From assembly GCA_017433295.1 (NCBI GenBank), contig JAFRHL010000021.1:1-64000 (forward strand): 64,000 bases of DNA, read 5' to 3'. The DNA is from Eubacterium sp. Lineage in GTDB: Bacteria > Bacillota > Clostridia > Lachnospirales > Lachnospiraceae. The translations under genes and the position numbers were made by a program. Shown here piece by piece: positions 43,717 to 63,900 of the stretch. The notes beneath the pieces were generated by a model. The model made no database searches, was not told the DNA's origin, and worked only from the letters and a program-made list of their open reading frames with translations. Position 1 is the stretch's first letter. Every line of letters begins with the position of its first letter.

Positions 43717-44862
43717 ATGGCAGAAAAAACAATAGAGCCAAATGTTATAATGGAGAATGAAGAGGAACTTGAGAACCTTATGTTTTCAGGAGAGGGGGAG
43801 AGTCCGCTTTTTTCCTCTGTCAGAGTGGTAAGGAAAGACTTTTCTGTATTTGAACTATACAGAAAGTATAATAAGAATCCAAGGCAGTTGATGTTGGATG
43901 TAGATTTTCAGAGAAAAAGTGTCTGGGATCCGAAACAGAAACGTGAATTGATTGAAAGTATTCTGATGGGTCTGCCTCTTCCAATTATTTATTTAAAACA
44001 ACAGAATAATGCTACTTATGCAGTAGTAGATGGCAAACAGCGACTATCCACGTTATTTGGTTTTATTGATAACAAGTTTTGCTTAAAAGACCTTAAAATA
44101 CTTTCTTTTCTGAATGGAAAATATTTCAAGGATTTAACAGGCGATTATGGTATTTACCAGTCACAATTAGAGGACTATCAATTATATATCCATCTGATTC
44201 TTCCTCCTACTCCTGATAAAATCCTTTTTGATATTTTTGACAGAGTGAACAGAGGAGGAACAAAGCTGAATAAGCAGGAAATCAGAAATGCATTATATCA
44301 TGGCAAAGGCATGGATATGATTTCATCTGTCAACAGATCGCAGATTTTTCAAAAAGTAACCCGTATTAAATATAAAGATGACAGAAGAATGAAAGGTTCT
44401 TATCTTATTACCAGATTTTTATCCTTTTATCTATTGTTTGAGAACTTGTTATATAAAGATGGGAAACCCTATAATTATTCGGGTGACATAGATGACTTAA
44501 TAGAGGTTTCTTTGGCAACCCTTAATAGAATGTCGGATAAGGATTTGCAGAACCTGGAGAGATTGATATCTGAAAGTCTAGAGATTTCAAATGATATTCT
44601 TGGAGATGGTGCTTTTCGCAGAGAAATGAACAGGTCTAAACCCATTAATATGAATATCTTTGAAACTACATTATATTTTATGAATTTGATAAATAATGAT
44701 AAAGATTTTATTCCATATGGAAAGATCAGACTGGCATTAAAGAAAACAATTATGTCAGATGATTTTCTGGATTACATTGGGAACAGCAGAGAGAATACAA
44801 TAAAAGTACATGGCAGATTTGGTATGATGGATGAGTTATTCAGGGAGCTTCACGATGATTGA
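43717..44862 (+). CDS. DUF262 (GmrSD/ParB-like) protein
   Basis: This 381-aa protein has the DUF262 nuclease-like core: DVDFQRKSVWDPKQKRELIESIL (about 61-83), AVVDGKQRLSTLFGF (DGKQR at 105-109) and FDRVNRGGTKLNKQEIRNALY (about 174-194). DUF262 occurs in modification-dependent restriction (GmrSD) and other defence proteins, where DGQR-like motifs bind or hydrolyse nucleotides. There is no C-terminal HNH/DUF1524 domain, so it probably acts with partners. Codons are clearly AT-richer than in flanking genes. AAGGG is 8 nt upstream; the end overlaps the next gene by 8 nt. Confidence 0.85.
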   Translation: MAEKTIEPNVIMENEEELENLMFSGEGESPLFSSVRVVRKDFSVFELYRKYNKNPRQLMLDVDFQRKSVWDPKQKRELIESILMGLPLPIIYLKQQNNATYAVVDGKQRLSTLFGFIDNKFCLKDLKILSFLNGKYFKDLTGDYGIYQSQLEDYQLYIHLILPPTPDKILFDIFDRVNRGGTKLNKQEIRNALYHGKGMDMISSVNRSQIFQKVTRIKYKDDRRMKGSYLITRFLSFYLLFENLLYKDGKPYNYSGDIDDLIEVSLATLNRMSDKDLQNLERLISESLEISNDILGDGAFRREMNRSKPINMNIFETTLYFMNLINNDKDFIPYGKIRLALKKTIMSDDFLDYIGNSRENTIKVHGRFGMMDELFRELHDD

Positions 44863-50174: not shown

Positions 50175-51011
50175 ATGGAAATCATCATAAAAGAGAATTA
50201 TCTCTCAGACTTTAAGGCTCAATTAAGATCAGAAGAAAAAAGTGCACACACCATCCAAAAGTATATCCGTGACACAAAGGCCTTTGCGGCTTACATTGGA
50301 GAGAACCCGGTCACTAAAGAGAGGGTCATGGAGTATAAGGAGCATCTAATCAGCCAGGGCTATGCCGTCGGCAGCATCAACTCCATGCTGGCATCCCTCA
50401 ACAGCTTCTTAAGATTTATGGGCTGCGACCACTGCCGGGTACGGCATTTGCGGGTGCAGAAATCCATCTATTGTCCCGAGGAGAAGGAACTGACCAGGAA
50501 TGAATACTTCAGACTGCTAAAAGCCGCCGGCAAACAGCCCCGGCTAAAAATGATCCTCGAAACCATCTGCGGCACAGGGATAAGGGTGTCGGAGCTTCAA
50601 TATTTTACACTGGAAAATGTGCGCCGGGGCGAAGTCACCGTTTCCTGCAAAAATAAGACCAGGACCATTCTGCTTCCCAGAAAGCTTAGGCTTAAGCTGC
50701 TGGATTATTCCAGAAGGCAGGGGATCAAAGAAGGACACATATTCAGGACCAGGACCGGGGCCCCTGTGAACCGGACCAACATCTGGGCTTCCATGAAAAA
50801 GCTCTGCCGGGAGGCCCGTGTCTGTCCCGGCAAGGTCTTTCCTCACAATTTAAGAAAGCTTTTTGCCCGGACTTTTTACAGTATGCAGAAGGATATCGCG
50901 GGGCTGGCGGATGTGCTGGGACACAGTAATATCAATACGACCAGGATATATATTATGACTACGATAAGGGAGCATCAGAAGAAGATCGACAGCATGGGGC
51001 TGGTGGTGTGA
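50175..51011 (+). CDS. Tyrosine recombinase (site-specific integrase)
   Basis: This 278-aa protein has an N-terminal SAM-like core-binding domain (1-95) and a catalytic domain with the full set of active residues: Arg 137 (GTGIRVSEL), His 224 and Arg 227 (PHNLRK), His 250 (GHSN) and Tyr 259 (TTRIYI). No excisionase or phage gene is near. Directly downstream are the perfect inverted repeats described below, which are the likely substrate, so it is probably an inversion switch enzyme rather than a prophage integrase. The RBS AGGAGG lies 6 nt upstream. Confidence 0.92.
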   Translation: MEIIIKENYLSDFKAQLRSEEKSAHTIQKYIRDTKAFAAYIGENPVTKERVMEYKEHLISQGYAVGSINSMLASLNSFLRFMGCDHCRVRHLRVQKSIYCPEEKELTRNEYFRLLKAAGKQPRLKMILETICGTGIRVSELQYFTLENVRRGEVTVSCKNKTRTILLPRKLRLKLLDYSRRQGIKEGHIFRTRTGAPVNRTNIWASMKKLCREARVCPGKVFPHNLRKLFARTFYSMQKDIAGLADVLGHSNINTTRIYIMTTIREHQKKIDSMGLVV

Positions 51012-51022
51012 AGGGGGAAGGG

Positions 51023-51047
51023 ACATAATTTATATAATGTAGTAATC
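51023..51047. repeat. Left inverted repeat of the invertible segment
   Basis: These 25 bp are the perfect reverse complement of 51416-51440. The inner arm is ATGTAGTAAT (51037-51046), next to a 10-bp AT core AATTTATATA (51027-51036). The outer arm is reduced to ACAT. It lies 12 bp after the recombinase stop. Confidence 0.88.
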
Positions 51048-51076
51048 GGTCGTCATGATGGATAAACAGACGCAAA

Positions 51077-51195
51077 AAAAGACAGCAGGAAGTATGCCTG
51101 CAAGTTCCGTTGCTCCTCGAAAGGAAAGAAACCGGACCTGTTTCTTTCATTCTGCGGTGCAAAGTCGCTTTCAGACATACTTCCTGCTGTCTTTT
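51077..51195 (-). terminator. Nested inverted repeat within the invertible segment
   Basis: Perfect 20-bp arms (51077-51096 and 51176-51195) enclose a 79-bp loop that contains another stem, GAAAGAAAC (51124-51132) with GTTTCTTTC (51140-51148). On the minus strand the stem is followed by a T7 run, so termination is strongest in that direction. After inversion it would stop transcription coming from the recombinase before the helicase gene. It could also be a small structured RNA. Confidence 0.6.
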
Positions 51196-51351
51196 CTGCT
51201 GAATCGTTTAAGGCATCATGATATTACCCTTTAAAAAAGTGTCCCTGGCAGGAGTAATTTCTCCTCAAATTGGTAAAATATGGCCTTTTTCGATGTTGAT
51301 ATTAGATAAGTATTGTCAATTGTAAGACTAGGTTTTGTTCAAAAGACATAA

Positions 51352-51380
51352 TTGATTTTCTGGATGCTATATAGTATACT
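51352..51380 (+). promoter_or_regulatory. Promoter inside the invertible segment
   Basis: TTGATT (51352-51357), a 17-bp spacer and TATACT (51375-51380) point at the helicase gene. The start of transcription would fall near 51387, still inside the repeats, so inversion would turn it away from the downstream genes. Confidence 0.75.
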
Positions 51381-51415
51381 ATTAAACACATATCTATCTA
51401 TTATTTATGATATAT

Positions 51416-51446
51416 GATTACTACATTATATAAATTATGTAGTAAT
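51416..51446. repeat. Right inverted repeat of the invertible segment
   Basis: The 25 bp 51416-51440 match the left repeat in reverse. The full site is symmetric: ATTACTACAT (51417-51426), 10-bp core, ATGTAGTAAT (51437-51446), the shape expected for two recombinase protomers on either side of a crossover spacer. It lies between the promoter and the helicase RBS. Confidence 0.88.
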
Positions 51447-51481
51447 TATAGGAGTTTTCGCGGATTCCCGGGAGGTCGTTG

Positions 51482-53710
51482 ATGGCCATTGCGTTGTATG
51501 AACACAATGAGACGGCATACAAGGCAGCGATGAAGCTGCTTTCTGAAAAAGGCAAGGCGGCGGTGATTCATCCCACCGGTACCGGCAAGTCTTTTATTGC
51601 CTTCAAGCTATGCGAAGACCACCCGGACAAAAAGATATGCTGGCTTTCGCCTTCGGCTTACATTTTTAAGACCCAGGTGGAGAACCTGAAGGCTTCCTTG
51701 GCAAAGGAGAAGCAAAAGCTTCATGGGAAGGAATGCGACCGGTCACAGACAGGGGATGAGGAGGAAGACCTGTCCCCGGTGACTGACAATATTTCCTTTT
51801 ATACTTATGCGAAGCTTATGTCCATGCCGGATCCCGAGATCCGGGCCATTGAGGCGGACTACATCATCCTGGACGAGTTCCACCGCTGCGGGGCAAAAAT
51901 GTGGGGAGAGGGAGTGGATACTCTGCTCAGTTCCCATAAGGATGTTCCCGTTCTGGGTCTTTCGGCCACGGCGGTACGCCATCTGGATCACTGCAGGAAT
52001 ATGGCGGATGAGCTCTTTGAGGGGAATATTGCTTCCGAGATGTCACTGGGGGAAGCCATAGTAAGGGGAATCCTTTATCCGCCCAGGTACATCTTGTCTA
52101 TCTACAGCCGCAGACAGGAGCTTGACAAGTATGAGAAGAGGGTCAGGAAGGCGAGAAATGCGGCAGTCCGCCAGAATGCGGAGAAGTATCTGGAGGAGCT
52201 GAAGAGGGCTTTGGAGAATGCGGAGGGCCTTGACCTGGTATTTGAGAAGCATATGACTGTGAAGGACGGTAAGTATATTGTTTTCTGCACAGATTATGAG
52301 CATCTTAAGGAAATGTCGGGAAAGGTTCCGGAATGGTTTGGCCGGGTAGATTCCAGCCCCCATGTTTACATTGCCTATTCAGATGATCCTGCCACCAGCC
52401 GTCAGTTTCAGGAGTTTAAAGCTGACCAGAGCGAACACCTGAAGCTTCTTTTCTGTATAGACATGTTAAATGAAGGAATTCATCTGGATGATATTCAAGG
52501 TGTGATCCTTCTTCGGCCCACGGTTTCGCCCATCGTCTTTAAGCAGCAGATCGGCCGGGCATTTTCGGCCGGGAAGCAGAAGGAAGCAGTAATCTTTGAC
52601 ATTGTATTAAACATTGAGAACCTATACAGCATCGACGCCCTGCAGGAGGAAATGGACCTGGCCACGGCCTGGTACCGGTCAGCGGGGGAAGAGTCGAAGA
52701 TCCTCAATGAACACTTTGAGATCACCTGCGAGGCAGAGGACTGTCTCCGTCTGTTCTCACAACTGAATGAATCCCTGACCGCCTCCTGGAACTACATGTT
52801 CTCGGAAGCGGAGAAATATTATAAAGAAAATGGAGACCTGAACGTACCCAAACGGTACATCACACCATCAGGCTTCTCCCTGGGATCCTGGCTTTCTACC
52901 CAGCGTCAGATCCATGCCGGAAAGATTCCGGGACGGCTGACAGAGGATCAGGTAAGCAGGCTTGACAGCATCGGAATGTGCTGGCTGAGCCGGACTGACT
53001 TAAGCTGGGATAAATATTACAGAGCCGCCGAAAAGTACCGGCAGGAGCATGGCCACCTGCTGGTCAAATACAGGGAAAGCTATGACGGCGTCAGGCTCGG
53101 CGCATGGATCAAGAGCATGCGCACCTACAGAAAAAGTGGTATCCAGAAGAACTATCTCACCCCCGGCAGGATCCGGCAGCTGGATCAGCTGGGAATGGTC
53201 TGGGATATTCCTGATTATATATGGGAGCAGAATTATCACGCTGCCATGCGTTACCACCGGAATTACGGAGATCTCAATGTAAGACCGGATTATATCGATC
53301 CGGAGGGGATCCATCTGGGCCTCTGGCTCAACCGGGTCCGCAACGTGAAGAACGCTCCGGAGAAATATAAGGACCAGCCTCTCACCATAGAACAGATCAA
53401 AGCTCTGGACGCCCTGGGCATGACCTGGGGATCAAGGCATGATGAGAAGTGGAACCGGGCCTACCGGGAGGCATGCCGTTACCGGGATCGGTTCGGCAAC
53501 CTGGATATTCCGGCATCCTATATCACAGAAGACGGGGAGCATTTCCGGCTGGGAAGATGGCTCAGACGCCAGAAGGAAAGCTGGCAGAAGGGGAAACTCT
53601 CAGGGGAAAGGCTGGAGAAGCTTAAAAAGATCGGAATGGTTTGCACATATCATGAACAATATGAACAGAACAAATCAGAAGAAATCAATATTGTCGGGTC
53701 TTACTTTTGA
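51482..53710 (+). CDS. DEAD/DEAH-type helicase with four helicase-associated repeats
   Basis: This 742-aa protein has helicase domain 1 with HPTGTGKS (30-37), DEFH (131-134) and SAT (161-163), and domain 2 with FCIDMLNEGIHLDDIQGVILLRPT and QQIGRAF. Four helicase-associated (HA) repeats of about 65-70 aa follow (about 460-735), each with W...Y..A..Y....G.L.V...Y....G..LG.WL......G.L......LD.LGM.W. GGGAGG is 6 nt before ATG 51482. It is the first gene after the invertible promoter. HA-repeat helicases are poorly understood; a nucleic-acid role is inferred. Confidence 0.88.
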   Translation: MAIALYEHNETAYKAAMKLLSEKGKAAVIHPTGTGKSFIAFKLCEDHPDKKICWLSPSAYIFKTQVENLKASLAKEKQKLHGKECDRSQTGDEEEDLSPVTDNISFYTYAKLMSMPDPEIRAIEADYIILDEFHRCGAKMWGEGVDTLLSSHKDVPVLGLSATAVRHLDHCRNMADELFEGNIASEMSLGEAIVRGILYPPRYILSIYSRRQELDKYEKRVRKARNAAVRQNAEKYLEELKRALENAEGLDLVFEKHMTVKDGKYIVFCTDYEHLKEMSGKVPEWFGRVDSSPHVYIAYSDDPATSRQFQEFKADQSEHLKLLFCIDMLNEGIHLDDIQGVILLRPTVSPIVFKQQIGRAFSAGKQKEAVIFDIVLNIENLYSIDALQEEMDLATAWYRSAGEESKILNEHFEITCEAEDCLRLFSQLNESLTASWNYMFSEAEKYYKENGDLNVPKRYITPSGFSLGSWLSTQRQIHAGKIPGRLTEDQVSRLDSIGMCWLSRTDLSWDKYYRAAEKYRQEHGHLLVKYRESYDGVRLGAWIKSMRTYRKSGIQKNYLTPGRIRQLDQLGMVWDIPDYIWEQNYHAAMRYHRNYGDLNVRPDYIDPEGIHLGLWLNRVRNVKNAPEKYKDQPLTIEQIKALDALGMTWGSRHDEKWNRAYREACRYRDRFGNLDIPASYITEDGEHFRLGRWLRRQKESWQKGKLSGERLEKLKKIGMVCTYHEQYEQNKSEEINIVGSYF

Positions 53711-55718
53711 GCATTGGAAAATCATCGCCGGATGTATGGTGGTATATGACATCATCGCTGTCAATGCAGCCTATTTCCTTGCTCTTTTACTGCGCTTTGA
53801 CTTCAGGTATTCTTTTATACCTTCCCAGTATCTGGTTCCCTTTTTCCGTTTCGCTCCCGCCTATACATTCTTCAGTATCGGCACCTTCATTATCTTCAGG
53901 CTCTACAGGAGCATCTGGCGTTTTGCCAGTTATGACGAGCTGATCCGGGTGATCGGGGCTTCCATTGTGACCGCTTTCTTCCATACCATAGTACTCACTG
54001 CCCTTTTTCAGAGGATGCCGCTTTCCTACTATATTATCGGCGCCATTCTCCAGTTCATCCTGGTCCTTGCGGTACGGTTTTCCTACCGTTTTGTCCTGTT
54101 GCTCCAGAGCAGGTCGCGGAGGGGAGAAAACAGCAGGAGCCCTGTTCCCAATATCATGGTGGTAGGTGCCGGCAATGCCGGACAGGCCCTGATCCGGGAT
54201 ATCCGCCTGGCCCAGGAAGTAAAGGGAAGGGTGGTGTGCATCATCGATGACAACCCCAATAAGAGGGGAAGATACATAGACGGCATAGAGGTGGTGGGCA
54301 GCCGGGACTGCATCCCGGAGGCAGTGAGGGACTACCAGGTGGACAAGATTTACCTGGCCATGCCCAGTGCGAGCCCTGTGGAGAAGAGGGAGATCCTGGA
54401 GATCTGCAAGAATACCTCCTGCGAACTGAAAACCATCCCGGGCCAGTACCAGTTCATCACCGGAGAGATCACCGCCAGCAAGATGAAGAAGGTGGAGATC
54501 GAGGACCTGCTGGGAAGGGACCCGGTCACCCCTGACATGGACGGGATCTCCCGTTTTGTAAAGGGGAAGAGCGTCCTGATCACCGGAGGGGGAGGCAGCA
54601 TCGGGTCCGAGCTGGCCAGGCAGGTGGCCGCCCAGAATCCCGCCAGACTTATCCTGGTGGACATTTATGAGAACAATGCCTACGAGATCCAGCTGGAACT
54701 TAAAAAAAAGTATCCAGACCTTGACCTGGAGGTCATCATCGGCTCTGTCAGGGACAGCAGGATGATGTTCAAGGTCTTTGAAAGATTTCGGCCCCAGGTC
54801 GTATACCACGCGGCGGCCCACAAGCATGTGCCTCTGATGGAGGATACCCCCTGCGAGGCTATCAAGAACAATGCCATCGGTACTTACAAGACGGCCTATG
54901 CCGCCATGTCCCACGGCTGTGAGAGGTTTATCCTCATCAGCACCGACAAGGCAGTCAACCCCACCAACATCATGGGCGCTTCCAAGCGTCTTTGTGAGAT
55001 GATCTGTCAGGCCTTTGACCATAAGGTCAAAGAAGGGAAGGCCAGTGAGATCCCCCAGCTCTTTACCCATACGAAGGATGTGGTCACCAGCGTGGGTGTC
55101 CTTAAGGAGCTCAAGGAGACTAAGACGGAATTCGTTGCCGTGCGCTTCGGGAACGTGCTGGGCAGCAACGGGTCCGTGATCCCGGTCTTTAAGAGGCAGA
55201 TCGAGAACGGCGGCCCTGTCACCGTGACCCACAAGGACATCGTCCGTTACTTTATGACCATCCCGGAGGCGGTGGGTCTGGTCCTGGTGGCCGGGACCTA
55301 CGCAAAGGGCGGGGAGATCTTCGTCCTTGACATGGGGGAGGAAGTAAAGATCGATACCCTGGCCAGGAATATGATCCGCCTGTCGGGTTACAGGCCGGAT
55401 GTGGACATAAAGATCGAATATACCGGGCTCCGTCCCGGCGAGAAGCTTTATGAGGAGAAACTCATGGCCGAGGAAGGACTTAGGCGGACACCCAACAAGC
55501 GGGTGCACATCGGATGCCCGATTCCCTTTGACATCGAAGACTTCCTGGGGCAGCTAAAGGAACTGATGGAGGCTGCCTATAAGAATAAGGAAAATATCCG
55601 GGAACTGGTGGCCGAGGTGGTGAATACCTATCATCCGGAACAAGGCGGGGAAGCCGGTGCCCAGAAAGCGGAAGATGCCCGGGACAGGGCGATGAAGGAG
55701 GCAGCTGTGGCGGGGTGA
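53652..55718 (+). CDS. CapD/FlaA1-type polysaccharide biosynthesis epimerase/dehydratase
   Basis: This protein of about 688 aa has four N-terminal transmembrane helices (about 20-125), a first Rossmann-like domain (MVVGAGNAGQALIRDI) and a catalytic SDR domain with ITGGGGSIGSELARQVA, AAAHKHVPLME, STDKAVNPTNIMGASK and PEAVGLVL. Members convert UDP-GlcNAc to the 4-keto-6-deoxy sugars used in glycans. The start overlaps the helicase gene by 59 nt with a weak RBS; ATG 53661 is an alternative. It is strongly coupled to the helicase. Confidence 0.93.
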   Translation: MNNMNRTNQKKSILSGLTFEHWKIIAGCMVVYDIIAVNAAYFLALLLRFDFRYSFIPSQYLVPFFRFAPAYTFFSIGTFIIFRLYRSIWRFASYDELIRVIGASIVTAFFHTIVLTALFQRMPLSYYIIGAILQFILVLAVRFSYRFVLLLQSRSRRGENSRSPVPNIMVVGAGNAGQALIRDIRLAQEVKGRVVCIIDDNPNKRGRYIDGIEVVGSRDCIPEAVRDYQVDKIYLAMPSASPVEKREILEICKNTSCELKTIPGQYQFITGEITASKMKKVEIEDLLGRDPVTPDMDGISRFVKGKSVLITGGGGSIGSELARQVAAQNPARLILVDIYENNAYEIQLELKKKYPDLDLEVIIGSVRDSRMMFKVFERFRPQVVYHAAAHKHVPLMEDTPCEAIKNNAIGTYKTAYAAMSHGCERFILISTDKAVNPTNIMGASKRLCEMICQAFDHKVKEGKASEIPQLFTHTKDVVTSVGVLKELKETKTEFVAVRFGNVLGSNGSVIPVFKRQIENGGPVTVTHKDIVRYFMTIPEAVGLVLVAGTYAKGGEIFVLDMGEEVKIDTLARNMIRLSGYRPDVDIKIEYTGLRPGEKLYEEKLMAEEGLRRTPNKRVHIGCPIPFDIEDFLGQLKELMEAAYKNKENIRELVAEVVNTYHPEQGGEAGAQKAEDARDRAMKEAAVAG

Positions 55719-55816: not shown

Positions 55817-56269
55817 TTGGATATCAGCCTCTGGTATTATCTGGCGGCCTTCCTTCTGTTCCTGGGAGTGTGGGCAGTAAGCTGGAAGGTCAGCGCCGGG
55901 CTGTTGGCCGGATATGTGTTGTTCATTTTGGCAGTTACGATTCTGAGCCGGACACCTACAGATATGATGAAGGTAGAACTAAAGCTTTTCTGGTCCTATG
56001 ATATCCCCGAACTCCGGGAACAGATTATCTGGAATGTCCTGAGTTTTATACCTGTCGGTGTGTTGGGAGCGGTACTTGTCAGATGGAGGGGCATACCGAT
56101 GGCTGCAGGGTTGAGTGTGGTCATAGAACTGCTGCAGCTGGTGACCTTGAGGGGGCTCTTCGAATTTGACGATACCATCCATAATTCTGCCGGGGCAGCG
56201 GCGGGGGTGGTAGCATGGATGGTTGTTTGCGGGGAATGGGTGAGGAGAGGCTCGGACGAGAAATATTAG
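55817..56269 (+). CDS. VanZ-like membrane protein, start codon doubtful
   Basis: This 150-aa (or slightly longer) protein has four hydrophobic helices and the VanZ-like core ELREQIIWNVLSFIPVGVLG...ELLQL...FEFDDTIHNSAGA. VanZ-family proteins sit near envelope genes; VanZ itself gives low teicoplanin resistance. The best RBS (GGAGGG, 55782-55787) points to ATA at 55796, giving an N-terminus IDYVVSLLD. No ATG exists in frame upstream; TTG 55817 is the first standard start. Either a rare ATA start or a mutated ATG. Confidence 0.75.
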   Translation: MDISLWYYLAAFLLFLGVWAVSWKVSAGLLAGYVLFILAVTILSRTPTDMMKVELKLFWSYDIPELREQIIWNVLSFIPVGVLGAVLVRWRGIPMAAGLSVVIELLQLVTLRGLFEFDDTIHNSAGAAAGVVAWMVVCGEWVRRGSDEKY

Positions 56270-58466: not shown

Positions 58467-58750
58467 CTGTCTTAAAGAGCCGGTCGGGGTTGAAAATAAT
58501 GTAGTTTACATTCAAAGAGACGGTCGGCATTGAAGATGTACATTTATTGGAGCGTGCAGGGTCACGGAGTGTCTTAAAGAAGTGGTCTGGGTTGATAGAG
58601 ATGAAGTTGTAATAAGGGAGATATTGTTCATCGGATTTCACGGAAACCGAGGGTGTTTAAGACAAAGCGGGAGGTTGAGGAGGCTCAATAAGAATTTCCT
58701 CTAACGATTCGAGACGATGATGGGGATCATCGTTTGGAATGGGTGGAGAA
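58467..58750 (+). repeat. Diverged long repeat, copy 2
   Basis: This is the partner of 56555-56830, with best identity in the first 60 bases and at the ends. It ends just before the YafQ-type toxin gene, where an antitoxin gene would be expected. It contains no open frame with start and RBS on the plus strand. Confidence 0.6.
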
Positions 58751-58772
58751 AAGTACAGCAGACGTTCAAGTT

Positions 58773-59039
58773 ATGTTTGAAATAAACTACTCCGGGAAGT
58801 TTAAGAGAGACTACCGCCTGATGAAGAAACGTGGCTACGATATGGAGGTCCTACGCGATGTGGTCGACTTGCTGAGAGCAGGTATTCCGCTGGATGATAA
58901 ATATCATGACCATCAGCTTGTCGCTGATTACGCAGGCAGCCGTGAGTGCCACATTAGACCTGACTGGCTGCTCATTTACTGGAAAGGGCAAGATTATATC
59001 GAGCTTCAGAGGACAGGGACACACAGTGATCTGTTTTAA
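58773..59039 (+). CDS. YafQ/RelE-family mRNA interferase toxin
   Basis: This 88-aa protein starts MFEINYSGKFKRDYRLMKKRGYD and has the YafQ active set: His in YHDHQL, His-Asp-Trp in ECHIRPDWLLIY, and His and Phe in RTGTHSDLF. These toxins cut mRNA in the ribosome. The sequence looks fully active. No RelB/DinJ-like antitoxin is found upstream (copy 2 of the repeat lies there) or downstream. ATG 58773 matches family length; upstream in-frame TTG 58734 is possible. No strong RBS. Confidence 0.82.
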   Translation: MFEINYSGKFKRDYRLMKKRGYDMEVLRDVVDLLRAGIPLDDKYHDHQLVADYAGSRECHIRPDWLLIYWKGQDYIELQRTGTHSDLF

Positions 59040-59271: not shown

Positions 59272-60636
59272 ATGGAAAAGAGAACAATCAGTTTTAGTCC
59301 GCCTGACATCACCGAACTTGAAATTAATGAAGTCGCAGAAGCATTGCGTTCTGGTTGGATAACTACGGGACCGAGAACAAAGATGCTGGAATGCCGGCTT
59401 GCTGCATATTTTGAAACTGGGAAAACAGATATTGACTGCACTAGCCGGGAGGCGATTGCAAAGTATAGCCAGAAGGTTGTGTGCTTAAATTCTGCCACGG
59501 CTGCGGAAGAATTGAACCTTCGCATCCTCGGCGTTGGCCCAGGTGATGAGGTGATAGTCCCAGCATATTCTTATACCGCTTCTGCGTCTGCCGCGATCCA
59601 CTGCGGTGCAACGGTAGTGTTTGTGGATATTCAGAAAGATGGTGATCCGGATACTCATTGTCCGGAGATGGATTACGACGCCCTGGAAGCAGCTATTACT
59701 GAAAAGACCAAGGCGATCATTCCAGTTGATCTTGGTGGTATTGTCTGCGACTATGACCGGATTTTTGAGGTCGTGGAGCGGAAGAAGGATCTGTTCAATC
59801 CTATGATTTCCGATGGTACTCCATTATCAGATCTTAGTTCTGCTATCCAGCGCGGTTTGGGTTGTGTGGCGGTCGTATCCGATTGTGCTCACAGCCTTGG
59901 AGCGAGCCGTGTGGTGAGCAGAACCGGAGAAGGCAAGATCGTACCAACCCGCCGCTACTGTGGCAGAATCGCTCATTTTTCAAGTTTCAGCTTCCATGCG
60001 GTGAAAAACTATACTACCGCCGAAGGTGGGGCAAGTACATGGTGCTTACCATCCTCCGTCTACGACGAGGGCGTGACGGATGCACAGATTTATAAGTTCT
60101 ATCAGCTCTTATCTCTCCACGGCCAGAACAAAGACGCTCTGGCAAAAACGAAGGTCGGTGCTTGGGAATACGACATTATCGGGCCGTGGTATAAGTGCAA
60201 CATGACGGATATCATGGCGGCGATCGGTTTGCGGCAGTTGGATAGGTACCTATGCCTGCTAGATAGAAGAGTTGAGATGATGGCGAAGTATGACGCGGCT
60301 TGCGATGCGTTGGGAATAAGTCATATGGTTCATCATGTCGAGGGAATGGATAGTTCTAATCATCTGTACCTGATAAGAGTGCCGGGGATAGATGTTGAAC
60401 AGAGGAATTTGATAATAGAGAAGATGGCTGAATGCGGTGTGTCCACCAATGTTCACTACAAGCCGATGCCAATGATGACTGCATATAAAGAGAGTAGCGG
60501 TGGGATAGGGCTGTATCCAAACGCTTATGACTATTATAAGAACTTAATCACGCTCCCGTTCCACACATTGCTGTCGGATGAGGACGTGGAGTATGTATGT
60601 GAGACGTTAAAGGAAGTAGTTAGTGAAGTTTGTTAA
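59272..60636 (+). CDS. DegT/DnrJ/EryC1/StrS-type aminotransferase
   Basis: This 454-aa PLP enzyme makes amino sugars from keto sugars. It has LRSGWITTGPRT, LNSATAAEELNLRILGVGPGDEVIVPAYSYTASASA, VSDCAHSLGA and the PLP Lys in FHAVKNYTTAEGG. It is longer than many relatives because of an insertion around 55-70 and 165-200. Codon use is less GC-rich than in the CapD gene. GAGG lies upstream. It opens the second polysaccharide block. Confidence 0.92.
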   Translation: MEKRTISFSPPDITELEINEVAEALRSGWITTGPRTKMLECRLAAYFETGKTDIDCTSREAIAKYSQKVVCLNSATAAEELNLRILGVGPGDEVIVPAYSYTASASAAIHCGATVVFVDIQKDGDPDTHCPEMDYDALEAAITEKTKAIIPVDLGGIVCDYDRIFEVVERKKDLFNPMISDGTPLSDLSSAIQRGLGCVAVVSDCAHSLGASRVVSRTGEGKIVPTRRYCGRIAHFSSFSFHAVKNYTTAEGGASTWCLPSSVYDEGVTDAQIYKFYQLLSLHGQNKDALAKTKVGAWEYDIIGPWYKCNMTDIMAAIGLRQLDRYLCLLDRRVEMMAKYDAACDALGISHMVHHVEGMDSSNHLYLIRVPGIDVEQRNLIIEKMAECGVSTNVHYKPMPMMTAYKESSGGIGLYPNAYDYYKNLITLPFHTLLSDEDVEYVCETLKEVVSEVC

Positions 60637-60991: not shown

Positions 60992-61636
60992 ATGGAAAAT
61001 ATGTATAGAAGATATATTAAACGATTACTTGATTTGATCATTAGTATTATAGGCTTTCCTTTCTTCTTAATAGCCCTCATCGTATTCGGACCAATCATAA
61101 AGGCAACGGATAAGGGACCGGTTTTCTACAATGCGAAAAGAATTGGAAGGAACGGAAAACTGTTTAAAATGTTCAAGTTCCGTTCAATGTATGTTAATGC
61201 ACCAGATATCCGCTTAGCTGATGGATCTACATACAACGGAGAAGACGATCCCAGAGTAACCAAGGTGGGAAAGTTCATGCGTGCAACCAGCATCGACGAA
61301 CTCCCGCAGTTAATCAACATGCTGAACGGAACGATGAGCTTAATTGGCCCGCGGCCCGATCCCCCAGATTGGCTTGATAAGTATCCAGAAGATATAAAGG
61401 TGTTCTTGACCGTTCGCCCCGGATTGACCGGCTACAGTCAAGCATATTTCCGTAATGGTGCTGACGGTGAGCAGAAGATGAAGAACGATGCGTACTATGC
61501 ACAACACGTTTCTTTCCTCTTTGATGTAAAGATTTTTTTTAAGACTATTGCCACTGTCCTTGGACATGAAGGAACATACAAAGATACATCGTCAGAAGAA
61601 GAAGCCGTAAAGCAGGCAGAAGCTCTGAAAAAGTGA
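60992..61636 (+). CDS. Initiating sugar-phosphate transferase (PglC/WcaJ-type)
   Basis: This 214-aa protein has a membrane helix (about 12-34), then the bacterial sugar-transferase core: FKMFKFRSMYVNAP, RATSIDELPQLINMLNGTMSLIGPRP and VRPGLTGYSQ. It loads the first sugar phosphate onto undecaprenyl phosphate to start a surface glycan. The size fits the short PglC-like class. The start may be 60992 or 61001. It follows the VanZ-like gene by 12 nt. Confidence 0.93.
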   Translation: MENMYRRYIKRLLDLIISIIGFPFFLIALIVFGPIIKATDKGPVFYNAKRIGRNGKLFKMFKFRSMYVNAPDIRLADGSTYNGEDDPRVTKVGKFMRATSIDELPQLINMLNGTMSLIGPRPDPPDWLDKYPEDIKVFLTVRPGLTGYSQAYFRNGADGEQKMKNDAYYAQHVSFLFDVKIFFKTIATVLGHEGTYKDTSSEEEAVKQAEALKK

Positions 61637-61655: not shown

Positions 61656-62708
61656 ATGGTTAAAGAATATGGCTATGAATACGATGCCGTACTCAATGAG
61701 CAAATATGGAAGGCTACAGAGGGCAAGGTAACAGATCAAAAGCTGATGGGTGCCAATTGCCTACGTAGTGGAAGGGATGCGCTTAAGGCGATTGCAAGAG
61801 AATATGAACCCTGTGTGGCTCTATTGCCAGCTCTCGCCTGTGATTCTATGGTTCATCCCTTCGAATCGTATGGACACAAGATTCAGTATTATAGGCTGAA
61901 TGAAGATTATTCGATTAATCTGGAAAGTTTGAAAATTGGAGAAGAAAAGACTCTTTTCCTCTATGCTGATTATTTCGGGAAGCCGGCAATACAGGATGAG
62001 GAGCTTGAGAAGCTCAGAACACGTGGAAACATTATCTTCATTGAAGACAGAACCCACAACTTAGTCTGGGAGAGACGGTATAGCTTCAAGTCTGATTACA
62101 TCATGGCAAGTCTCCGAAAATGGTTTCCTGTTCCGGATGGTGGATTACTCTGGGGCGAGATTACAAAGCCGCTTGGAAACGATACAACTTTCTCTATGAC
62201 ACGACTTAAAGCCCAATGCATGCGACATGAATTTTTAGTTTGTGGAGAAGAGAGCATAAAGACGGAGTATCGCAAGATCTTCTCTACAGTTTCTGATTTG
62301 ATGGACGAAGATGGGCCGAGTGCTATGTCTGCTTACGCTTATGCGTTGGCGAGGGATACGGATTGGGATGAGGTGCGGAAAGCGAGGCAACAGAATGCTG
62401 AAGCTCTGATCTCGATTCTGTCCACATCCCCCTATGTTAGTTTCATCCAGAATCAGTCTGGCAAAAGCGACCTCTATGTGTCATTTATCGTTCCCAACCG
62501 GGATGAGGTGCAGAGAAAGCTATCAGCAGAGGGAATCTTCAATACTATTATCTGGCCTCTGATGGACGAGCAGAAACACGTTTGCTCAGTAGCAAAAATC
62601 ACCGAGGAAAACATGCTAGCTGCTCCGTGTGATCAGCGATATTCAACAGATGATATGAAAACAATAGGTGCTGAAATTGTGAGGGTTATAGCCGATGTTA
62701 ACGGATAA
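61656..62708 (+). CDS. PLP-dependent aminotransferase-like protein
   Basis: This 350-aa protein resembles the DegT fold (SGRDALKAIAREY, ALLPALACDSMVHPFESYGHKIQYY). In the usual PLP-lysine region it reads SDYIMASLRKWFPVPDGGLLWG, where Lys in RKWF could be the Schiff-base lysine. EDRTHNL replaces the common EDxAH. It may aminate a sugar or be an atypical family member. AAGGAG is 9 nt upstream and its end overlaps the next gene by 14 nt. Confidence 0.75.
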   Translation: MVKEYGYEYDAVLNEQIWKATEGKVTDQKLMGANCLRSGRDALKAIAREYEPCVALLPALACDSMVHPFESYGHKIQYYRLNEDYSINLESLKIGEEKTLFLYADYFGKPAIQDEELEKLRTRGNIIFIEDRTHNLVWERRYSFKSDYIMASLRKWFPVPDGGLLWGEITKPLGNDTTFSMTRLKAQCMRHEFLVCGEESIKTEYRKIFSTVSDLMDEDGPSAMSAYAYALARDTDWDEVRKARQQNAEALISILSTSPYVSFIQNQSGKSDLYVSFIVPNRDEVQRKLSAEGIFNTIIWPLMDEQKHVCSVAKITEENMLAAPCDQRYSTDDMKTIGAEIVRVIADVNG

Positions 62709-63900
62709 AGCAAACGAAACACAGAAAACGATAATGATCCTTGGCGCAAGCATCCTCCAACTTCCGGCGATTGAGAAAGCTGTGGAGATGGGGTTGAAAG
62801 TAGTAGCCCTTGATATGAATCCCGAGGCAGTTGGATTTAATGTCCCAAGTGTCATTAAAGAAGTAATCAGCACCATTGATATACCAGCCGCCGTTGAAGC
62901 GGCAAAGAGACATCATATTGATGGCGTTATGACGCTTGCGACCGACATGCCGATGCGCACGGTGGCGGCTGTAGCGAAGGAATGTGGGATTGTAGGTGTA
63001 TCAGAAGATACTGCTGTAAAGGCAACCGATAAGAGCGTGATGCGCGAAGCGTTGAAGGCTGTTGGAGTCCCGGTTCCGAAGTTCTTTAGGGTGACGAATA
63101 AGGAAGAATTCAAAGCTGCGGTAGATCAGATCGAAGGTCCGTTTATGGTCAAGCCCGCTGATAGTTCCGGTAGCAGAGGGATTCTGAAGGTGGAAGAAAG
63201 GGAAAACCTCGACTCCACTTACGAATACACTAAGCATTTCTCCCATAACGGTGTTGTGGTTGTCGAAGAATGCATGACTGGACCTGAGGTTAGTGTAGAA
63301 ACGCTTGCTATAGACGGAGAAGTCCACGTAATTCAGATAACCGATAAGATAACTACCGGTGCTCCTCATTTTGTTGAGATGGGTCATACACAACCTACAA
63401 GACTTGATTGTGCTGAAGAAATTAGGAAAGTAGCTGTCGCAGCGAATAAAGCAATTGGAATTGAAAATGGCCCATCACACACAGAGATAATTGTAACCGA
63501 AGATGGGCCGAAGATTGTTGAACTTGGAGCGCGTTTAGGTGGTGACTGCATTACTACGCACTTGGTTCCTTTATCTACTGGTGTTAATATGGTTGAGGCT
63601 TGCATTAAGATAGCACTCGGTGAAAAACCAAGTATCACTCCGACAATGTACTGTGGCTCTGCTATTCGTTATTTTCATCAGCATGCGGGTGTTGTGAAGA
63701 GTATCGAAGGGCTGACGGAGGCAGAAGGAATGCCAGGCGTGAAGCAGATTTCCATTGTCCATGGTGTTGGAGAGAAAATCACTGAGATAACTGATAGTGG
63801 ATCTAGAATGGGGTTTGTGATTGCGCAGGGTGTAGATGCGGAAGATGCTGCATACAATTCTGAAACCGCAATGGCTTCTATTCATGTTGAGGTACTTTGA
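62695..63900 (+). CDS. ATP-grasp ligase
   Basis: This 401-aa protein has an N-terminal Rossmann-like preATP-grasp domain (IMILGASILQLPAIEKA), a central region with FMVKPADSSGSRGI (ATP-binding) and VVVEECMTGPEVSVE, and metal ligands in VELGARLGGDCITTHL. It is of the carbamoyl-phosphate-synthase/PurK-like carboxylate-amine ligase type. Beside two PLP enzymes and a sugar transferase it could join an amino acid to a sugar or make a peptide-like modification. That is inference. Confidence 0.85.
   Translation: MLTDKANETQKTIMILGASILQLPAIEKAVEMGLKVVALDMNPEAVGFNVPSVIKEVISTIDIPAAVEAAKRHHIDGVMTLATDMPMRTVAAVAKECGIVGVSEDTAVKATDKSVMREALKAVGVPVPKFFRVTNKEEFKAAVDQIEGPFMVKPADSSGSRGILKVEERENLDSTYEYTKHFSHNGVVVVEECMTGPEVSVETLAIDGEVHVIQITDKITTGAPHFVEMGHTQPTRLDCAEEIRKVAVAANKAIGIENGPSHTEIIVTEDGPKIVELGARLGGDCITTHLVPLSTGVNMVEACIKIALGEKPSITPTMYCGSAIRYFHQHAGVVKSIEGLTEAEGMPGVKQISIVHGVGEKITEITDSGSRMGFVIAQGVDAEDAAYNSETAMASIHVEVL

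Follow-up and report, generated by a model that had tools for sequence, protein, structure and literature searches.

In Bacteroides, phase variation of surface polysaccharides is well understood. The master recombinase of Bacteroides fragilis, Mpi, is of the serine type (PMC5903667). In Clostridioides difficile the tyrosine recombinase RecV serves several sites that lie away from its own gene, and Cdi7 is the one C. difficile site that has a recombinase in its vicinity (PMC5903667). Among the groups of invertible elements described more recently, inverton group 139/invertase group 35 draws 32 of its 33 invertons from Clostridia of the human gut; a tyrosine-type recombinase lies within 5 kb of nearly every inverton, two named examples, by the coordinates given for them, measure approximately 254–256 bp with repeats of 13 and 25 bp, and shifts in orientation have been measured by reads (PMC11892184). 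The subject of this report is a stretch of 64,000 nucleotides (nt) from Eubacterium sp. of the Lachnospiraceae (assembly GCA_017433295.1, contig JAFRHL010000021.1, positions 1 to 64,000, forward strand), referred to below as the window, which very probably carries a self-contained invertible-promoter switch, flipped by the recombinase encoded beside it and here in the ON state, ahead of a helicase gene and a set of polysaccharide genes.

The recombinase gene (50175–51011, + strand) encodes a tyrosine recombinase of 278 amino acids, the proposed invertase of the adjoining sites, with Phage_integrase (Pfam, 3.1e-21) and SAM-like domains and a complete catalytic set, R137, K159, H224, R227, H250 and Y259. 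Behind its stop codon stands the left inverted repeat, a candidate recombination site of 25 bp (51023–51047, − strand; ACATAATTTATATAATGTAGTAATC), which pairs perfectly over 25 of 25 bp with its exact reverse complement, the right repeat (51416–51440, + strand). The repeats are 368 bp apart, and enclose the interior of the proposed invertible segment (51048–51415), a region that in relatives occurs in both orientations; the whole segment (51023–51440) measures 418 bp. With up to three mismatches allowed, the repeat has two copies only in the 2.9-Mb draft genome. A master recombinase serving several sites was also considered for this genome and rejected, only its two sites having been found and the other recombinases found standing at 24–31% identity. 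The right site forms a full dyad of 10-bp arms around a 10-bp centre (51417–51446, + strand), a 10-10-10 pattern that found no match in shuffles of the window and that would also make a hairpin in the predicted 5′ leader. Between the repeats a promoter-like TTGATT-17-TATACT (51352–51380, + strand) is directed towards the operon, at the mirror position of the promoters of relatives. A preliminary description of this locus had recognised the complete recombinase, the 25-bp site with its exact reverse complement, the symmetric right site with its 10-bp core, and the promoter reading out to the helicase and polysaccharide genes, and all of these were borne out; the distance that it gave from recombinase to left repeat, 12 bp, is corrected here to 11 nt from the stop codon. 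A strong hairpin within the segment and the departure of the outer half of the left site from the dyad are additions to that description.

In the mechanism that we propose, the recombinase would bind both 25-bp sites and invert the 418 bp that they delimit. In the ON orientation the internal promoter would transcribe the HA-helicase gene and the polysaccharide genes behind it, and after inversion it would point back, antisense to the recombinase gene, into its 3′ end, leaving the operon cut off. In either state a hairpin within the segment would stop recombinase transcripts from leaking into the operon. A long hairpin with runs of T after the stem on both strands does lie at 51077–51195, and is proposed to be a bidirectional terminator between recombinase and operon; the stretch 51070–51205 folds with a free energy of −62.2 kcal/mol on the + strand and −67.0 kcal/mol on the − strand (z −8.5 and −9.0). 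Rfam returned only two sub-threshold matches, malK-II (E 0.033) and MIR8643 (E 0.065), both far below their gathering scores and both dismissed as chance. We infer that this recombinase acts on these sites, that flipping continues in this strain, that the polysaccharide is subject to phase variation and, from its position, that the helicase influences how its own operon is expressed.

Relatives of the recombinase were collected from samples of genus, family and class genomes and from named genome contigs, with at most the best 30 loci taken from each sample. This gave 105 loci, the window included, of which 75 have repeats, nine have none, 15 have less than 350 nt of 3′ sequence and six are duplicates with an identical segment; the segment of locus L067, from a genome of the same family, is identical to that of L037. 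Repeats were counted where a perfect pair of at least 15 bp started no more than 200 nt 3′ of the recombinase match, pure A/T repeats being excluded. A repeat segment thus follows the recombinase at 75 of the 84 distinct loci with enough sequence, with lengths of 211–456 bp, and one of the nine loci scored as repeat-less, L013, has an imperfect pair of 18 bp. The strict core ACATAA-N6-TTATGT is present in 68 of the 75 loci, and the consensus drawn from these 68 adds an inner arm near TGTAAA. The middle four of the six N6 bases vary freely from locus to locus (their identity at both sites of a locus follows from the search itself, which required perfect repeats), and the outer flanks are weakly conserved. 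The R-K-H-R-H-Y residues are invariant in all 72 aligned members of at least 250 residues, window included. With the window genome counted, the recombinase occurs in 79 of 396 sampled family genomes (E ≤1e-50) and 48 of 393 sampled class genomes (1e-60).

A search of relatives for both orientations had been suggested in the preliminary description, and both exist. The state of each segment was called by comparing promoter scores in mirror zones 40–125 nt from the segment ends, using promoter weights and a state margin of 0.8 that are our own and are built on the sigma-70 consensus. On this basis 53 of the 75 loci are OFF, with the promoter pointing back, 16, including the window, are ON, with the promoter pointing downstream, and six are unclear. 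An outward promoter score of at least 9 was reached by 38 of the 75 segments, against 0.7% of 750 shuffled segments. The interiors were also aligned pairwise with the repeats removed and the promoter retained, without use of the promoter score and leaving out the six unclear loci. Same-state pairs aligned on the plus strand in all 126 cases and never on the minus strand, whereas opposite-state pairs aligned on the minus strand in 33 cases and on the plus strand in one, so that strand and state call agree for 159 of the 160 pairs. The comparisons are not independent: L026 or L045 takes part in 28 of the 34 opposite-state pairs, and the ON members of these pairs come from six loci in all. A tree was built from 73 of the 75 recombinases, omitting the partial proteins of L045 and L057, both ON; it requires no fewer than 12 changes of state, 10 of them forced by supported branches. 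Shuffled state labels gave a mean of 13.0 changes, and 132 of 500 shuffles were as low. The state is scattered on the tree at near the shuffled level and thus does not follow descent at these distances, which is what a switch in working order should give. Collectively, the orientations in the family and the strand comparison strongly support the earlier reading of the locus as an invertible promoter that is now ON. Two loci, L133 and L145, have strong outward promoter matches at both ends of the segment, so that neither orientation would be silent.

Several observations weigh against this reading. The nearest full-length relative of the recombinase, at L006/L052 (62% identity, same genus), is without a repeat pair, and L138 and L148, which are in opposite states, aligned on the plus strand. 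The bare 9-of-12 promoter match of the window is near chance (five in the region against 2.3 expected), its weight coming from the promoters of relatives at the mirror position. A scan of 70-nt folds places the window segment close to its own shuffles (−20.0 against −18.7), and its hairpin stands out only on whole-hairpin folding; 41 of the 69 family segments with a called state have 70-nt folds more than 5 kcal/mol stronger than the shuffled mean. The draft assembly (56 contigs, 91% complete) gives a single orientation for this strain. Finally, the window interior aligned with no OFF segment, its sole match being one of 19 bp with L036, which is also ON, and for this reason the evidence on orientation is evidence on the family, of which the window is one member.

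A rival reading is that the window holds a former switch, now locked in the ON state through decay of the left site's outer half or through loss of recombinase activity. The outer half of the left site (51013–51022) is without the dyad arm that is present at the right site, the window site has one mismatch to the family core, and the inverted form of the window's own segment was found in no close relative. However, no mismatch has entered the 25-bp repeats, the recombinase is complete and retains every catalytic residue, and the outer flanks are poorly conserved across the family in any case, and a lock of this kind is judged improbable.

The tyrosine recombinase superfamily includes integrases, and some relatives of the window recombinase are carried by large replicons. 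Those of Subdoligranulum variabile and Monoglobus pectinilyticus (L161, L162 and L164) lie on large replicons listed as plasmids and have the family repeat core just 3′ of the recombinase gene, while at that of Pusillibacter (L163), also on a large replicon, the repeat differs and an S-layer-homology protein is encoded downstream. These features would fit the integrase of a small mobile element with its attachment sites, in which case the repeats would be there for excision or integration. Such an element is nevertheless very hard to reconcile with sites that are inverted rather than direct, a recombinase gene that lies outside the segment, segments that at all 75 loci are too short for an ordinary gene, and interiors that are found in both orientations; moreover, viral contigs gave no exact match to the window site and no confirmed relative of the recombinase. 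Least credible of all is that the repeats are static palindromes, such as terminators or operators, that happen to lie beside an unrelated recombinase. The interior hairpin is terminator-like and hairpins of this sort are common, but the repeats are perfect over 25 bp at a distance of 368 bp and found nowhere else in the genome, and the layout recurs in 75 loci and in both orientations.

A further possibility accepts a real switch and adds that the OFF state dampens the recombinase through the antisense promoter, making OFF the stable state. At OFF loci such as L053 and L054 the outward promoter is at most 125 nt from the left end of the segment, a limit set by our scoring, and is directed at the 3′ terminus of the recombinase gene. 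For 62 of the 69 family segments whose state was called, the strongest 70-nt fold is in the part distal to the promoter, and would therefore not stop an antisense transcript. OFF loci also outnumber ON loci, 53 to 16, but such an excess can equally come from selection, culture or assembly, and dampening of this kind seems to us possible and on the unlikely side.

The switch that we favour, an invertible promoter served by its own recombinase, would in the window control a presumed operon headed by a superfamily 2 (SF2) helicase (51479–53710, + strand) with ResIII, DEAD and Helicase_C domains and HA matches in four stretches (Pfam, 8.7e-69). Behind it on the same strand lie genes, all assigned by Pfam, for a Polysacc_synt_2 protein resembling nucleotide-sugar dehydratases (53439–55718; 3e-113), a VanZ-like protein (55817–56269), a DegT/DnrJ aminotransferase (59272–60636), a sugar transferase (Bac_transf; 60992–61636; 4.4e-58) and an ATP-grasp ligase (62695–63900). 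The Polysacc_synt_2 open reading frame (ORF) as listed overlaps the helicase gene, and its true start is probably later. A YafQ-type toxin gene (58734–59039) lies within the polysaccharide region, which has few clear genes between approximately 56.3 and 59.2 kb. Elsewhere in the window, 43717–44862 encodes a protein with a GmrSD N-terminal (restriction endonuclease) domain.

The genes behind the switches of the recombinase family differ widely. A Pfam scan of 58 downstream proteins found SPFH/Band-7 (seven), collagen-like repeats (four), BspA-type repeats (four), SpaA (two) and protein kinase (two) domains, and a TIR domain is found downstream in L037; HA-helicase and Polysacc_synt_2 proteins occur once each, both in L036. 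The helicase was rejected as a fixed partner of the window recombinase, since among 46 other recombinase loci, several of them with short 3′ sequence, tblastn matched it at L036 alone.

A search for the helicase itself gave 19 matches in 12 of 298 family genomes, and 14 loci from ten other genomes were analysed with their context, leaving out the window and four fragments, namely L101 (67 nt upstream), L102 (256 nt), L106 (whose 14-bp repeat extends to the contig start) and L099 (1269 nt upstream and no strong repeat). At 11 of the 14 loci the right arm of a strong inverted repeat (score 19–33) lies no more than 250 nt from where the helicase starts, whereas none of 131 other ORFs of at least 150 amino acids from the same loci stands behind repeats with a score of 15 or more. 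Some of the ten genomes contribute more than one of the 14 loci, and such paralogues are not independent observations. At L112 the repeat is farther from the helicase, and L109 and L111 have none, L111 having an integrase gene beside the helicase.

The repeats are of several types that differ from that of the window. Sites like GTAATGAAG-N7-CTTCATTAC are present at five helicase loci (L108, L110, L114, L115 and L120), TTTCGnnGATT sites at two (L117 and L119), and dyads around AAGTATACTT or AAGTGTACTT at L112, L116 and L118, with a Resolvase gene beside L116 and L118. These site types may correspond to different classes of recombinase. At L113, L117 and L121 the inverted repeats enclose an integrase gene, and the recombinase gene itself would therefore flip. 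The genes downstream of the helicases are largely polysaccharide genes (Bac_transf eight, DegT five and WecG three of 45 proteins scanned). Outside the family the association is weak, with a repeat at one of seven usable helicase loci, three further loci being at contig ends. Within the family the association of helicase and inverted repeat is solid as a genomic pattern, and its recurrence behind unrelated switch-like repeats suggests that the helicase helps to run switchable surface sugars. PADLOC matches the motor region of the helicase to restriction and defence helicases (best PbeA, 3e-21, residues 15–378), but the interpretation of the helicase as a defence protein, though possible, was not adopted.

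Two genomes, G168 and G242, carry the pattern in multiple copies. Allowing up to two mismatches, GTAATGAAG-N7-CTTCATTAC sites number 21 in G168 and 12 in G242, with none for the reversed control pattern, and at the loci of these genomes (L108, L110, L115, L120 and L181–L194) they stand mostly as pairs ahead of helicase-headed polysaccharide loci. Nine G168 helicases lie just behind such sites, seven of them with a pair; the other two have one site each, located at the end of a contig or close to it. On the side of the further G168 pair C25 that was read there is a sigma-factor-like ORF but no helicase, and three single G168 sites are no more than 240 nt from a contig start. Of the six site pairs in G242, four head helicase loci, C67 is at a contig end, and C15 precedes a NusG-like gene, behind which come DegT- and Bac_transf-like genes; at helicase loci C49 and C11 a NusG-like gene takes second place. 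The recombinase that acts on the sites of these genomes presumably works in trans. Seven G168 helicase paralogues share 65–88% identity in the core and 44–60% in the HA part; the corresponding values for four G242 paralogues are 77–82% and 75–79%, and as core and HA part are about equal there, faster change of the HA part is not general.

These observations can be joined in a reading that we offer tentatively, as one that falls short of even likelihood. In this bacterial family HA-helicases would be a class of factors that each serve the expression of one phase-variable polysaccharide operon, the counterpart of UpxY outside the NusG family. Their HA arrays would read a leader or operon particular to the locus, and such modules would have come to stand repeatedly behind unrelated inversion switches; in the OFF state of window-type loci, antisense transcription of the recombinase gene would make flipping state-dependent. 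The HA-helicase provides a defined candidate regulator, and a sequence marker for candidate phase-variable polysaccharide loci in assemblies that come without reads.

As to the recombinase, a Streptococcus dysgalactiae gene annotated psrA and recombinases of Mycoplasmopsis, all from plasmid records, match it at 28–29% identity and are only distant relatives. A role of the matched Mycoplasmopsis recombinases in phase variation is presumed; PsrA of streptococci is reported to invert hsdS genes. Little was found, among the papers listed, on phase-variable surface polysaccharides of Lachnospiraceae, and an association of a helicase with phase-variable polysaccharides or invertible promoters is not described among those papers, which are mostly outside subscription journals. 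The word helicase is absent from the main text of PMC11892184, and a term search of PMC10939037 gave none of helicase, Lachno-, Firmicutes or Clostridi-.

The preliminary description had likened the locus to Bacteroides capsule switches and to clostridial ones. The clostridial half of that comparison probably stands, group 139/invertase group 35 being the likely published relatives of the window switch; both it and the window family come from Clostridia and have a tyrosine recombinase nearby, with segments of approximately 255 bp (two examples) in the one and 211–456 bp in the other (PMC11892184). RecV and Cdi7 of C. difficile resemble the window in having small inverted-repeat segments near regulatory or surface genes and a tyrosine recombinase, but RecV is remote from its sites whereas the window recombinase is located at the switch, a comparison made by description only (PMC5903667). 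The Bacteroides capsule switches are not the likely relatives of the window switch. The layout is nonetheless shared: in B. fragilis invertible promoters stand ahead of polysaccharide operons in which a regulator gene comes first (PMC7819879; PMC5903667), and several such loci per genome are found there and in relatives of the window alike. The first genes are alike in position and not in family, UpxY of Bacteroides being a NusG paralogue and the first gene of the window a DEAD/HA helicase without the NusG domain by which UpxY and LoaP are defined. The switch itself is thus of a known kind, and it is the association with the helicase that is new.

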